From Candidatus Yonathbacteria bacterium RIFCSPLOWO2_01_FULL_47_33b (GTDB taxonomy: Bacteria; Patescibacteriota; Minisyncoccia; Phycocordibacterales; UBA1550), in NCBI GenBank assembly GCA_001823575.1, contig MHUW01000013.1, positions 1 through 35,052 of the forward strand: a stretch of 35,052 nucleotides of DNA, written 5' to 3'. The notes below the pieces were generated by a model that worked only from the letters and a program-made list of their open reading frames with translations, was not told the DNA's origin and ran no database searches. This document shows positions 2,988 to 30,363 of the stretch, in pieces. Position 1 is the first letter of the stretch; each line of letters opens with the position of its first letter. The position numbers were made by a program, and so were the translations under genes.

Positions 2988-3410
2988 TTACTCCCGCGCT
3001 TTTGCGCGGGAGTTTTCTTTTTCTGTTTGCGCAAGTATCTGGTTGTGCCAGCCACCGAGCATGCGCCCTACTTCGAAAAGCTTTTCAGAGAGCGCAATGA
3101 ACTTTTTTGCATCGAGTGCGTCGACTTTGTTTGCGACACGAAGGAGGAGTTTTACCGTGTCGAGTAGCTGAATTGCTTTTTGAATGTGAACGGTCTTGTG
3201 TTCCTTTTTTACAAAAAGTGCCGAGGATATATAGCACATGATTTCACACAAGAGAGAGTCTATTTTTGCACCGAGTGAGTAGCGGTGGATTTTTGGAAAG
3301 TGTAGAATGTAGGAATGCCACAAAGTATACGCAACTTCAATCTTGAGAATGAGGGGTGGGATGTCTGTGGGTATACGGGGGGGGGGTGGACATAAAGGAA
3401 AGTATACCAT
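2988..3410 (-). CDS. avd: Avd-like DGR accessory protein (four-helix bundle)
   Basis: HFPKIHRYSLGAKIDSLLCEIMCYISSALF...KAIQLLDTVKLLLRVANKVDALDAKKFIALSEKLFEVGRMLGGWHNQ matches the Avd/four-helix-bundle pattern; the start codon is uncertain. Confidence 0.82.
   Translation of the reverse strand: MVYFPLCPPPPRIPTDIPPLILKIEVAYTLWHSYILHFPKIHRYSLGAKIDSLLCEIMCYISSALFVKKEHKTVHIQKAIQLLDTVKLLLRVANKVDALDAKKFIALSEKLFEVGRMLGGWHNQILAQTEKENSRAKARE
2990..3013 (+). terminator. Strong hairpin immediately downstream of TR
   Basis: ACTCCCGCGC-TTTT-GCGCGGGAGT followed by TTTCTTTTT. Confidence 0.7.
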
Positions 3411-4320
3411 ACAGAATGTACCCAACGCCCGTTCTTTTGAAGAAATCATCTCATACGAAAATTTATTGCGCGCGTGGGAAGATTTTATAAAAGGAAAGCG
3501 TGGCAGGAGAGACGTGGATATGTTTGCTCGTACATTGTCAGATAACTTGTGGCAACTTCACTTTGATTTAAAGAATAGCACTTATGCGCATGGAGGGTAC
3601 CATGAGTACACTATTTGTGATCCAAAAAAACGTACGATACACAAGGCAAGTGTGAGAGACAGGGTGGTACATAGACTAGTCTACAATGCTCTCTATCGGT
3701 ATTTTGATAAGCGGTTCATTCATGACTCGCACTCATCGCGAAAAGGGAAGGGGACACACAGAGCGCGCGACAGGTTTCGGCTTTTTGCGCAGAAAGTTAG
3801 TAAAAATTATACAAAGCAATGTTTTGTCTTGAAATTTGATATACAGAAATGTTTTGCGAGTATTGACCAGACAACGCTTTTGGAAATTCTTAAAAAACAT
3901 ATTGCTGATGATGAGGTGTATGACATTGTTGCTATAATCATTGGGAGCTTTAAATGCGGGCTTCCGCTTGGGAACCTCACTTCCCAACTTTTTATCAATG
4001 TGTACCTCCACGAGCTTGATTGGTTTTGTAAACATACCATTCGCGCAAAATATTATTTGCGTTACGCTGACGATGTTGTTATTGTATCGGATGATGAAGA
4101 TGAGCTCGACGTTGCGTACAGAATAATCGCTGATTTTTTGTTAAGCAAACTTTATCTTACGACCCACAAAAAGAGTGTGGCTACCATTTACCAAGGGGTT
4201 GACGTGTTGGGCGTGATATTCTTCCCCCGATATGGTATTTTAAGGAGAAGGACGAGGGTGCGGATGAGGGTGCGAGAACAACATGGAAAATATCTTCAAA
4301 CAAGAAATGGCGCAGAATAG
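3343..4320 (+). CDS. DGR reverse transcriptase
   Basis: HKASVRDRVVHRLVYN, DSHSSRKGKGTHRA, LKFDIQKCFASID, GLPLGNLTSQLFINVYLHELD, YLRYADDVVIVSDD, GVDVLGVIFFPRYGILRRRT; the exact start is uncertain. Confidence 0.95.
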   Translation: MRMRGGMSVGIRGGGGHKGKYTIQNVPNARSFEEIISYENLLRAWEDFIKGKRGRRDVDMFARTLSDNLWQLHFDLKNSTYAHGGYHEYTICDPKKRTIHKASVRDRVVHRLVYNALYRYFDKRFIHDSHSSRKGKGTHRARDRFRLFAQKVSKNYTKQCFVLKFDIQKCFASIDQTTLLEILKKHIADDEVYDIVAIIIGSFKCGLPLGNLTSQLFINVYLHELDWFCKHTIRAKYYLRYADDVVIVSDDEDELDVAYRIIADFLLSKLYLTTHKKSVATIYQGVDVLGVIFFPRYGILRRRTRVRMRVREQHGKYLQTRNGAE

Positions 4321-15533: not shown

Positions 15534-16544
15534 TTATACCAGATATTTTCCATTTTCAAAAATCACTTCACCATCGGCGAGAACACGGTCAACAACGGGG
15601 AAGACGTCGATGTGAAACTTTGACTTGTGGGCGGTGATGCCTTCCTTTTTGTAGACACTGTGCTTTTCGCCGAGTGAGAAGTGGAGCCCGACCAAGCGCT
15701 CAAAGGCGGTGATGTCCTGCATATAGCGCTCGCGGGTGATGGCGCGATTGAGACCGAAACCAATCTCGCGAATGAGTGGGCGCTCAAACTCTTTTATGTT
15801 CTCAATAATTTTTCCAAATGATTCTGGTGCATCGTCTTGCCAGCCGACGATGAGACCTTCTTTTACATCCACGCGGAACGGTATGTGCATATTGATAGAA
15901 AAGTCTGAACCCGCGTACGCATAGATCATAAACGAGCCGTTCATCTGTGCGAAGTCTGCGCATTCGGTAAACACTTCGCCGATGGGAAAGGTGCCACCTA
16001 TGTTTTCCATACCCGCATAGTCACCGATGTTGAGTTTTGGTGAGAGGACGCCGCCCGTGACCACGAGCTCGGCATCGCCCGCCTGAATACGGAGTTCCTT
16101 GATGCGCTCGAGCTTTGCTTTGAGCTTGGGGCCGATGCCGCGATACCAGTTGATGTCGTACTCGAGGGCGTTGATATACACATCCCATATATCCTCGGTA
16201 TTGCGATGGAGGTGGAGGTGTTCGATAACTTTCAGCTTTTTGTTAAAGAGGTGCAAGCGAATACGAAAAGCGTCGAGGAGGAAGTTTGAAGACTGAATGA
16301 GTACGACGAGGTCGCCGGGGCGCATAGCGTCGAATGCGGCGATGACTTCTTCTTTGCTCACCGCATCAAAGTCTACAAAGCGCGCATCGGGGAGCGCTGT
16401 GCGATAGGCGGCGGTCAAAATATCGGTGAGACCATAGCGTGTGTCGTACACCACCAAGGCTTTTTCGTTTGGTTTTTTCTCTATCGCGAGGTTCACGATG
16501 TCGGTGACGTTTTTGGTCGCGAGGGCGAGTAAATCTTTGTTCAT
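15534..16544 (-). CDS. Aminopeptidase (M29/leucyl aminopeptidase T-like)
   Basis: GGTFPIGEVFTECADFAQMNGSF and FGLNRAITRERYMQDITAFERLVGLHFSLGEKHSV; start set at MNKDLLALATKN. Confidence 0.7.
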   Translation of the reverse strand: MNKDLLALATKNVTDIVNLAIEKKPNEKALVVYDTRYGLTDILTAAYRTALPDARFVDFDAVSKEEVIAAFDAMRPGDLVVLIQSSNFLLDAFRIRLHLFNKKLKVIEHLHLHRNTEDIWDVYINALEYDINWYRGIGPKLKAKLERIKELRIQAGDAELVVTGGVLSPKLNIGDYAGMENIGGTFPIGEVFTECADFAQMNGSFMIYAYAGSDFSINMHIPFRVDVKEGLIVGWQDDAPESFGKIIENIKEFERPLIREIGFGLNRAITRERYMQDITAFERLVGLHFSLGEKHSVYKKEGITAHKSKFHIDVFPVVDRVLADGEVIFENGKYLV

Positions 16545-16586
16545 ATATATAGAGCCTAGCTCAAAATGAGAAAAAAGCAAAATACT

Positions 16587-16630
16587 CGCCGTCAATATAA
16601 GGTGACGGCCGTCACCTTATATTGACGGCG
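16587..16630. repeat. 44-bp perfect palindrome
   Basis: CGCCGTCAATATAAGGTGACGGCCGTCACCTTATATTGACGGCG; both 22-nt halves are exact reverse complements. Confidence 0.95.
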
Positions 16631-16655
16631 AAGAAAGTGTATCGTGGTGGGGTTG

Positions 16656-27596: not shown

Positions 27597-28784
27597 CTAT
27601 TTTGTGTCCTTAATCGTGAGGGCGTAAGGGAGTGCCGTGAGCATAATGATACCGAGAACGAGGAAGAGGTAGCGATAGTCGACAAGCGAGAGCACGATTG
27701 AACCGAGCAGGGGTCCGATGATATAGGCACTGGTGCGCATCGTGCGCATAAAAGTGACGAGATGAATGTCTCCTGGCCCAATTTTTTTGTAAAAATAACT
27801 CTCCGTCATGACCTCCACGGCGCTTGCCCCCGTGCGGGTAAGAAAGAGTGCGACCGCCCAAACGAGGACACTTGAGGTGGTAATCCAAGAAAGTCCCGCC
27901 GTGGTAACGGCGGTCAAGAGGAACCCCGCGGTCAAAATTTCTTTTTCACCAAGTTTTGCATCAGCAACCTTGCCAAGACCAACTTCAAAAAGAATGAATG
28001 GCACAAGCATGACCGGGGTGATGATACTCAAAATATCGTTCATCGAGATGCCCATATGTTTGTTGAGATATATGGGTGTGTAAATGACCATCCATGCATA
28101 GAAAAACGCGAGCAGGAAATGCATAAAGATAATCGAGTGAAGATCGTGACTCCCGGTGACCGTGCGGAACGTATCCCTGAATGCGGGCACATGGTAAACA
28201 GGGTCGGGGTGGTTTCTAAAGTTTTTTGCAACCACAAAAAATCCAAGCGCCATAAATGCGGCTGCGGCGAGGTATACCCTCCAAAAGTCGTGGTCGGTGA
28301 GCATGAGGCCCGCCACAAACGGTGCAACCGCGATTGCTACATTGATGACGGTCATAAAGACGCCACGGATACCTCCCGTCTTGCTGTCTTCGGAGAATGA
28401 TTCCACAAAGCTATCGAGGTTGAGAAAAATAATGTTGGTGAGAACTTGATGCAAAACAAACAAGGGAACCACAAGAAGTGGTGACGCCACAAATGCGCCC
28501 GAGCAAATAGCAAGACCGGTAAGTACGGCAACCTCAAGCCCCATCGTGGTGAGGGTGGCGCGGTAGTTGCCCACGCGACGCAAGAAGCGAGGGAAAAGGA
28601 ATGTGGTGATTGCCGTAAAGACCGCCGCAACAGAAAAGATGAGGCCCACCAGGTGCTCAGTAGGGAGAAACTGAACGATGAATGACGACTCGATATAGAG
28701 GGGGAGTGCGTAGTGGAACGAATATAAAAAGCTCGAGAGGTACACAAGGAGAAACAGGGTTTTTCGGGATAATGGTTTGGGCAT
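27597..28784 (-). CDS. MFS transporter
   Basis: ~395 aa with about 12 hydrophobic segments; LIFSVAAVFTAITTFLFPRFLRRVGNYRA. Confidence 0.88.
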   Translation of the reverse strand: MPKPLSRKTLFLLVYLSSFLYSFHYALPLYIESSFIVQFLPTEHLVGLIFSVAAVFTAITTFLFPRFLRRVGNYRATLTTMGLEVAVLTGLAICSGAFVASPLLVVPLFVLHQVLTNIIFLNLDSFVESFSEDSKTGGIRGVFMTVINVAIAVAPFVAGLMLTDHDFWRVYLAAAAFMALGFFVVAKNFRNHPDPVYHVPAFRDTFRTVTGSHDLHSIIFMHFLLAFFYAWMVIYTPIYLNKHMGISMNDILSIITPVMLVPFILFEVGLGKVADAKLGEKEILTAGFLLTAVTTAGLSWITTSSVLVWAVALFLTRTGASAVEVMTESYFYKKIGPGDIHLVTFMRTMRTSAYIIGPLLGSIVLSLVDYRYLFLVLGIIMLTALPYALTIKDTK

Positions 28785-28858
28785 AATTGGTATATTGTAG
28801 CACGAAATCCTTACACAAAACTACCGCAGACACTCCATTATTTTTTGCTCATATTGAG

Positions 28859-28906
28859 CAGGTATCTACTTATAGCATACTATAGTACGCTATAAGTAGA
28901 TACCTG
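28859..28906. repeat. Near-perfect 48-bp palindrome, copy A
   Basis: CAGGTATCTACTTATAGCATACTATAGTACGCTATAAGTAGATACCTG, one mismatched pair. Confidence 0.93.
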
Positions 28907-28972
28907 GATACTATGTAGGAGGTCTTAGGTGGTGATTAGCCTGATTTTTTAATGTAGTCAGTAAAAATGAAA

Positions 28973-29521
28973 TTACAAACCAAAGTGTTTTTTGATTGGG
29001 TCATCTCCCTCTAGCTCTTTAGCGGTAATTATTCGAATGTGACGGCGTACGCTGAAGCAGTCTGCCGCAAAATCAATTTCTTTTTTGCATGGGTAGGGGG
29101 TAATGAATACTGATTTTTGATACTGCACACACCCTAGTTTTTTAAGGGCTAGATTTATTGCCAGGCGAGCTGTGCGCTTGTCTTCAGGGATATCAAACAT
29201 AACGATTCTCCACAAACCATCCCATTTGGGTTGCTCGGCAATCTTCATTGAAAAAAGATGGTATCGCATAGCACGCACCTTGCCTGTTTCGGTGAGTATG
29301 TATTGTTCCTCGCCCGCAACCACTCTCTTTTTGATAAACTTACTTTCTTCAAGCCTTACCATAGATCTTTTGATTTTCCATTTATCCTTTGTATTTTTTG
29401 GATCAAAATATTTAAAAAGCTGCACCGCGTTCGGAGCAGTAACGGCGATAGTGAGAAACCCAACGACAAGGATCGTTGAAAGCAAAATCTCGCTGACTTC
29501 GTTTTTAGTAAATTTTTTCAT
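28973..29521 (-). CDS. PaaX-like regulator with Cas2-like C-terminal domain
   Basis: N-terminal TM and wHTH-like region (IKRSMVRLEESKFIKKRVVAGEEQYILTETGK); C-terminal DGLWRIVMFDIPEDKRTARLAINLALKKLGCVQYQKSVFITPYPC. Confidence 0.75.
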   Translation of the reverse strand: MKKFTKNEVSEILLSTILVVGFLTIAVTAPNAVQLFKYFDPKNTKDKWKIKRSMVRLEESKFIKKRVVAGEEQYILTETGKVRAMRYHLFSMKIAEQPKWDGLWRIVMFDIPEDKRTARLAINLALKKLGCVQYQKSVFITPYPCKKEIDFAADCFSVRRHIRIITAKELEGDDPIKKHFGL

Positions 29522-29546
29522 GTTGGTTGTTTGCGGGTAATTTAAT

Positions 29547-29592
29547 TACTATCTACTTATAGCATACTATAGTACTGTATAAGTAGATAGTA
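29547..29592. repeat. Near-perfect 46-bp palindrome, copy B
   Basis: TACTATCTACTTATAGCATACTATAGTACTGTATAAGTAGATAGTA; shares 26 contiguous nt with copy A. Confidence 0.93.
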
Positions 29593-29637
29593 GGGGAATG
29601 AAAAAGTTGGGATTTTGCGATTAGTGAGCACAAGGGC

Positions 29638-29668
29638 TTGACGCGAGACTCGGGGGGGGGGCTATACT
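29638..29668 (+). promoter_or_regulatory. Predicted promoter with G10 tract in the spacer
   Basis: TTGACG - 19 nt including GGGGGGGGGG - TATACT, 34 nt upstream of ATG 29702. Confidence 0.65.
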
Positions 29669-29701
29669 ATAGGGATTAGTAATACGTAGCCACCAAATAT
29701 T

Positions 29702-30352
29702 ATGGAATCAGCACCGCAACATCATCGAGAGGGAATTCAGGAACTTTTGGATAAAGCGTATGACGAGGGTCACCGCGATAACGTCGCGATGAAAGAAGGT
29801 GAAGTAGTAGAAGAAAGAGTCGGGCATATGGATGACAAAGAAATGCATGGCAAGTCTTCACAGGAAAGAACTTTGAGTTTTCTTCGTGATAGGGGCTACC
29901 TCGACACCTCGTTTGAAGGAAAGGAAATCCACCACCTTGTCGTTGAATCACTCTCTAAAAAAGAAGCGTTTGATCGCTACTGCAGTAGCGGCAGGACATC
30001 TGTATGGGATGGGTTGGAAGAGAATATGCCCTACATGACGCCGGAAGGGACAACACTTGACGTGATGATTATGAAGTTCAACAAAGTCATTGGAAGCGAT
30101 GAGGCAATCACCGAAATGGCAACTCTTGGTGTACGCCCTCTCACTTACGAGGAACTCATCCAGTACGGTATTGCATACCCAACACACCAAGAAAAAGACG
30201 CTTTTAACGGGCTGGGAAGCAAACACACCTTTGAGAACGGCAATGTGCTTACCCCGCGTCTCGTCTTGAGCGGTGGCTATCGTGTGCTGTGTGCCAATTC
30301 TTGGGACAGCGATTGGAGCGAATGGTGTCGTTTTCCTGTTGTTCGCAAGTAG
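29702..30352 (+). CDS. DGR-target-like protein (paralog of the MoxR target C-terminus, carrying VR2)
   Basis: LRDRGYLDTSFEGKEIHHLVVESLSKKEAFDRY...LGVRPLTYEELIQYGIAYP...GLGSKHTF...WDSDWSEWCRFPVVRK* parallels the 345-2510 C-terminus. Confidence 0.9.
   Translation: MESAPQHHREGIQELLDKAYDEGHRDNVAMKEGEVVEERVGHMDDKEMHGKSSQERTLSFLRDRGYLDTSFEGKEIHHLVVESLSKKEAFDRYCSSGRTSVWDGLEENMPYMTPEGTTLDVMIMKFNKVIGSDEAITEMATLGVRPLTYEELIQYGIAYPTHQEKDAFNGLGSKHTFENGNVLTPRLVLSGGYRVLCANSWDSDWSEWCRFPVVRK
30234..30350 (+). repeat. Diverged VR-like region (VR2)
   Basis: Codon-by-codon alignable with TR/VR1 but with many non-adenine differences. Confidence 0.75.
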
Positions 30353-30363
30353 TGCTGAAAACA

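Follow-up and report, generated by a model that had tools for sequence, protein, structure and literature searches.

In the window, as we call the whole 35,052-nucleotide stretch of DNA analysed here, a small gene encoding a winged-helix and Cas2-like protein is bracketed by two near-identical palindromes. This palindrome-gene-palindrome unit (28859 to 29592, minus strand, 734 bp) is probably a minimal autonomous mobile element accompanied by non-autonomous palindromes, with a layout like that of REP/RAYT and a Cas2-like protein. Dispersal of the palindromes is well supported, and we infer from linkage and covariation that the family protein drives it. At the level of sequence, the picture is made of private matched pairs, their link to one gene family, boxes that vary together with the proteins, solo palindromes, empty sites, amplification within a lineage, and purifying selection.

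The unit and its protein

A preliminary description of this DNA had placed a 182-aa gene of PaaX/Cas2 fold between two near-identical, near-perfect palindromes of 46 to 48 bp, one downstream and one upstream of it, and this arrangement was confirmed. Palindrome A (28859 to 28906) is 48 bp long with 23 of its 24 pairs complementary, and palindrome B (29547 to 29592) is 46 bp long and about 87% complementary. Each contains a 40-bp unit, at 28863 to 28902 in A and 29550 to 29589 in B; these are 95% identical and in direct repeat. The outer arms are CAGG/CCTG in A, absent from B, and TAC/GTA in B. As the gene (28973 to 29521) is on the minus strand, A lies just past its stop codon, at a distance of 66 bp, and B just before its start codon, 25 bp ahead. 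Both palindromes fold better than all 200 of their own shuffles, and in the whole home genome the 40-bp unit of the window is found only as A and B. The unit has as neighbours an MFS gene (27597 to 28784) and the promoter region of a gene of unknown product (29702 to 30352). No cas1 or other additional gene was found between A and B, nor any tandem (CRISPR) array nearby.

The protein was characterised with Pfam, NCBIfam, AlphaFold2, Foldseek and the dN/dS of its relatives. Its sole two Pfam matches were PaaX_M (PF20803, E value 1.6e-19) and Cas2 (PF09827, E value 5e-4). The winged helix spans approximately residues 5 to 95 and the Cas2-like ferredoxin domain residues 104 to 167, and the AlphaFold2 model (mean pLDDT 83.6) shows these two folds in the same order. 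Foldseek matched the model best, among PDB entries, to E. coli PaaX (8a39, E value 1e-4), then more weakly to winged-helix proteins and to Cas2 structures; a search of solved structures by sequence gave no significant match. The curated Cas2 cut-off of NCBIfam was narrowly missed (TIGR01573, 24.4 versus 24.5), the Cas2 Pfam score was also below its cut-off (20.7 versus 23.8), and the full-length PaaX score was far below (NCBIfam TIGR02277, 22.8 versus 264.55). No Y1/HUH transposase domain (PF01797) was found in the protein by Pfam or fold comparison. Values of dN/dS between 0.04 and 0.10 across close family pairs indicate that the protein is maintained by purifying selection.

The protein resembles the PaaX regulators by its N-terminal wHTH domain followed by the Cas2-like domain that is the middle one in PaaX. 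However, the chain ends after the Cas2-like domain and the C-terminal domain of PaaX was not found (182 aa, against 305 for 8a39); no phenylacetate genes lie near the locus. With Cas2 and the VapD-type small nucleases it shares the Cas2-like ferredoxin domain, in which the conserved Asp (Asp110, FDIPE motif) is kept, but these differ from the family protein, which has a wHTH domain and belongs to a unit without cas1 or CRISPR array.

Palindromes with and without the gene

The home genome, which belongs to a Patescibacterium (718,629 bp, 22 contigs), contains six copies of the family, the window gene included, and the other five paralogues are 39 to 68% identical to the window protein. All six are bracketed by palindromes of 38 to 60 bp, whose sequences differ from one paralogue to another. 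Five of the pairs are closely matched, and in the sixth (C17) the two copies are alike mainly at the core. When all 962 ORFs of at least 120 aa in this genome were taken as a control, a matched pair was present at only 6 of them, namely five family genes and one terminator-like pair. Within the genus, 10 of 16 genomes have 1 to 6 copies of the gene and the others none; across the order 120 of 297 genomes have it, with up to 11 copies, as do 120 of 380 across the phylum.

A pair could be read at 51 of the 67 family genes of the first sets, the other 16 including genes at contig ends, palindromes broken by an assembly gap, lone palindromes and genuine absences. Over 14 nt of arm, agreement at the 51 loci was 12.4/14 within a gene's own pair versus 5.5/14 across loci, and the best match was the palindrome's own partner in 41 cases. 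Loci that had not been used for pattern discovery yielded a matched pair at 6 of 14, and fresh loci across the phylum at 14 of 28, against a mismatched null of 0 of 756 for the latter (matched meaning at least 24/34 identities; the cut-offs were set by us). The pattern is therefore phylum-wide, and weaker outside the home genus. Palindromes are not absent around orthologues, an absence that the preliminary description had held, together with a lack of binding by the protein, to count against its proposal: pairs are found in most congeners and about half of the distant relatives. Strict palindrome scoring missed the imperfect pairs of L054 and L055, which were recognised by eye. At L024, L027 and L030, runs of N lie inside or beside the palindromes, which suggests that many more have been lost or broken in metagenome assemblies. 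Similarity between boxes tracked similarity between proteins, with a Mantel r of 0.35 against a maximum of 0.12 in 2000 permutations (kinship of both being ignored), which is what recognition of the box by the protein would produce.

The anatomy of the palindromes was examined over the same 51 loci. Counting outwards from the centre, identity between the two copies of a pair is down to background by pair 20, hence the 40-bp unit, whereas complementarity stays above chance out to about pair 25, so that the outer arms are palindromic yet unshared. The orthologous solo C21:4716 likewise has an identical core in G000 and G005, although its outer arms differ (TC/GA versus TATTT/AAATA). Such arms could result from hairpin selection, or from arm copying during replication. 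Insertion into older palindromes was also considered as their origin and discarded, as it does not agree with the gene pairs, where the side facing the gene is palindromic as well in both copies. The centre is near-perfect and loopless, and the relative orientation of the two copies is inverted at 12 loci, direct at 9 and symmetric at 30. Arm mismatches comprised 32 G-T and 21 A-C, without clear strand bias and thus with no sign of RNA function.

A scan of the home genome (713,557 bp) for long near-loopless palindromes returned 60, many of them terminators, and the same scan returned 0 on block-shuffled sequence, which keeps only local base composition. About 15 solos, that is palindromes without the gene, share or resemble family boxes. 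For some of them the identity with a gene-bound copy extends over 34 bp (solo C11:653 with a C20 copy, and C1:13831 with the C1:8083 copy). The solos are intergenic; C1:13831 alone, located between convergent genes, falls in an ORF call, probably a spurious one, that overlaps two ORFs of annotated size. Two orphan boxes, C16:2702 and C1:47734, correspond to genes known only from congeners. The preliminary description had proposed searching for the palindrome with and without this gene, and gene-free solos do exist, for the window's own box as well. With up to 3 mismatches allowed, a search of 317 genomes of the order found this box in 4, each of which belongs to the home genus (reversed-pattern control, 0): two copies in the home genome, and solos in G003 (2), G006 (1) and G015 (2). 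None of these solo loci has a family gene, and G006 has none anywhere in its genome.

Two further palindromic features were noted. A perfect 46-bp palindrome with centre CGGCCG (TCGCCGTCAATATAAGGTGACGGCCGTCACC...), at 16586 to 16631 in the window, coincides with the start of the 15534 to 16595 ORF; it is probably a candidate orphan solo of the general type, and the same centre is present at L022, L068 and L077. At C1:27068-27190 of G000, two palindromes with a common centre (TGTAGTCAT) are separated by about 40 bp, an arrangement that resembles a REPIN doublet or a unit that has lost its gene.

Several sites are occupied in one genome and empty in another. The G008 gene unit at C6:21744 is absent from G009, where the equivalent flanks are separated by some 60 bp of palindrome-free DNA. 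Among the solos of G008, C3:8911 has no counterpart in G009, and in G007 another palindrome stands in its place. C4:76931 is missing from G007, in which the orthologue of C4:59242 has decayed. Neither G005 nor G011 has the solo found at C16:7682 in G000. The empty sites are diverged rather than base-clean, and no exact junction or target duplication could be read, the closest genomes differing by 10 to 20%. At the window locus itself, the MFS and RNase J genes of several congeners are separated by a terminator alone; in G008, G009 and G003, extra genes have entered and solos of other families are found in place of the unit.

Amplification is seen in G263, in which nine copies group as a single clade although their loci are scattered. 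Near-identical recent gene copies were not found, the closest within-genome pair being 87% identical at the DNA level, and several gene units are syntenic across species, which implies that movement is rare or slow. A given intergenic place may hold different box families or units according to the species (C1:13831 of G000 versus L142; L155 versus L163; the window locus versus L092-L094; L034 versus L038, L054 and L055), as if these were hot spots or the boxes had been swapped. Viral spread was considered and set aside, as no relative of the family was found in IMG/VR.

Mobile element or regulator

In the mobile element that we favour, the two 40-bp palindromes would be recognition sites of the protein encoded between them, a dimer of which may read the box in each palindrome arm via its winged helix. 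Extrusion of the palindrome would give a hairpin or cruciform, for instance on single-stranded DNA at the replication fork, and both ends would then be processed, with the Cas2-like domain, which has the conserved Asp110, as candidate nuclease or scaffold. Such processing could lead to the copying of the unit, or of a lone palindrome, to another place, and the lone palindromes would be non-autonomous repeats spreading into intergenic DNA. Several observations go against this reading. The protein fold is most like that of transcription regulators (PaaX), no Cas2 or PaaX fold is known to transpose DNA, some relatives are without a detectable pair (16/67, 8/14 and 14/28 in the three sets), neither exact junctions nor target duplications were read between genomes that differ by 10 to 20%, near-identical recent copies are lacking, and several units stay at one place across species.

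The closest known parallel is the REP/RAYT system. RAYT genes have two flanking palindromes, whose copies are scattered outside genes, with complementary mutations and agreeing phylogenies (PMC2817692), and the RAYTs of one genome are distinct single copies (PMC3116915). Here too a single small gene has two matched flanking palindromes, extragenic copies of the same palindrome occur elsewhere, compensatory changes preserve the palindromes, palindrome and protein relationships agree, and each gene of a genome has its own palindrome class. On the other hand, the Y1/HUH transposase is replaced here by a wHTH and Cas2-like protein. The palindromes are near-loopless, about 40 bp long, not always inverted and without conserved head beyond, unlike the flanking palindromes of RAYTs, which are always inverted and have a GT(A/G)G head, and solos are far fewer (about 15 per 0.7 Mb). 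As the system has REP/RAYT-type features and no Y1/HUH transposase, we propose that it is analogous rather than homologous; the REP/RAYT-like alternative put forward in the preliminary description is well supported as a layout and as a population pattern of matched pairs and gene-free solos. IS200/IS605 elements are likewise tiny, with a single gene and a hairpin at both ends, but the present unit has no Y1 transposase, and its palindromes are near-perfect and placed right at the two ends of the gene.

A broader proposition, to which we lean less readily, is that these units may represent a new type of mobile DNA, whose winged-helix and Cas2-like protein has no kinship with known transposases and moves the palindromes of its own unit without Cas1, the REP/RAYT lifestyle having arisen independently and extended across a phylum with reduced genomes. 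In the open-access literature, which was the scope of our search, no report of a palindrome-bracketed Cas2-like family was found. The apparent novelty of the system is drawn from that search and from comparisons in which the protein fell outside every family considered. The genomes of Patescibacteria are very small, yet some have up to about ten copies of the unit plus solos. If the protein moves the palindromes, this would be a type of mobile element without known transposase, and the Cas2/PaaX fold would gain a role in DNA mobility, with a bearing on the origin of Cas2. If the protein acts as a regulator instead, paired self-specific sites that diverge with each gene copy would also be unusual; under either reading a predicted DNA substrate accompanies each gene.

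The regulator is the main rival, although we find it rather unlikely. The protein would be a PaaX-like transcription factor, the upstream palindrome its autoregulatory operator and the solos the scattered operators of a small regulon, none of them mobile. This agrees with the wHTH fold, with PaaX as best structural match, with the position of B 25 bp ahead of the start codon and with the intergenic location of the solos. PaaX itself represses its own promoter and binds the inverted repeat TGATTC(N27)GAATCA (PMC9493321), similar in total length to the 40-bp unit. However, many loci have a second matched copy that sits right against the stop codon or overlaps it, the solo C1:13831 lies between convergent genes, solo sites are not kept between close species, and the window box exists in G006 without any family gene. 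Moreover, an operator does not need unshared palindromic outer arms, and no sigma-70-like promoter was found in 28700 to 29800. The autoregulated operator pair, also envisaged in the preliminary description, thus leaves the stop-codon copy, the solos and the empty sites unexplained.

It is improbable that the palindromes are ordinary REPs moved by a Y1 (HUH) transposase, between which the Cas2-like gene merely sits or which it uses. Y1_Tnp (PF01797) is indeed present in 14 of the 16 genus genomes, and one such gene, L195 (G005:C27), is flanked by matched GAGGACCGCCCTCCGTATACGG palindromes; it is likely an ordinary REP/RAYT unit within the home genus, and a natural comparison. But its pair (GAGGACCGCCCTCCGTATACGG...) is unrelated to the boxes of the Cas2-like family, a matched pair is missing at 15 of the 16 Y1 genes examined, the private boxes go with the Cas2-like gene, and G009 has a family gene and a solo with no Y1 detected (assembly 91% complete).

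Less credible still is a target-site duplication, whereby a palindrome already present would have been duplicated as the gene entered it, just as a CRISPR repeat is duplicated when a spacer is inserted beside it. The near-identical copies on either side of the gene, their common 40-bp length and the Cas2 fold would fit, but the site of the G008 unit is palindrome-free when empty in G009, empty window loci have a terminator only, related proteins go with related boxes at different loci, and the unit has no Cas1 partner inside. Finally, it is very unlikely that the palindromes act as RNA hairpins on both sides of the transcript, as terminators or mRNA ends by which it is stabilised or insulated, since, although A and B are both predicted to fold well as RNA and some solos are near terminators, no T run follows A or B and the terminator scan made no call there, the sense strand has no clear G-U bias (32 G-T against 21 A-C), the palindromic centre is loopless and near-perfect, and no Rfam family exceeded threshold.

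Other features of the window

Runs of 7 to 11 G with a promoter-like motif directly after them (GGGGGGGCTATACTA...) are present at 29652 to 29661 and 3377 to 3386, at C1:8174 of G000, and elsewhere. The home genome contains 17 G runs of at least 7, many of them ahead of genes, and these may possibly be phase-variable promoters. The preliminary description had also suggested that the unit might affect the VR2 gene downstream. A link between G tracts and palindromes was looked for and judged not convincing, as 2 of the 17 tracts are near such a palindrome versus 0.5 expected. The window also contains a reverse transcriptase gene (RVT_1, 3343 to 4320) and two related segments, at 2042 to 2500 and 29899 to 30356, which are 64% identical in DNA sequence and about 27 kb apart; together these look like a diversity-generating retroelement with two targets.
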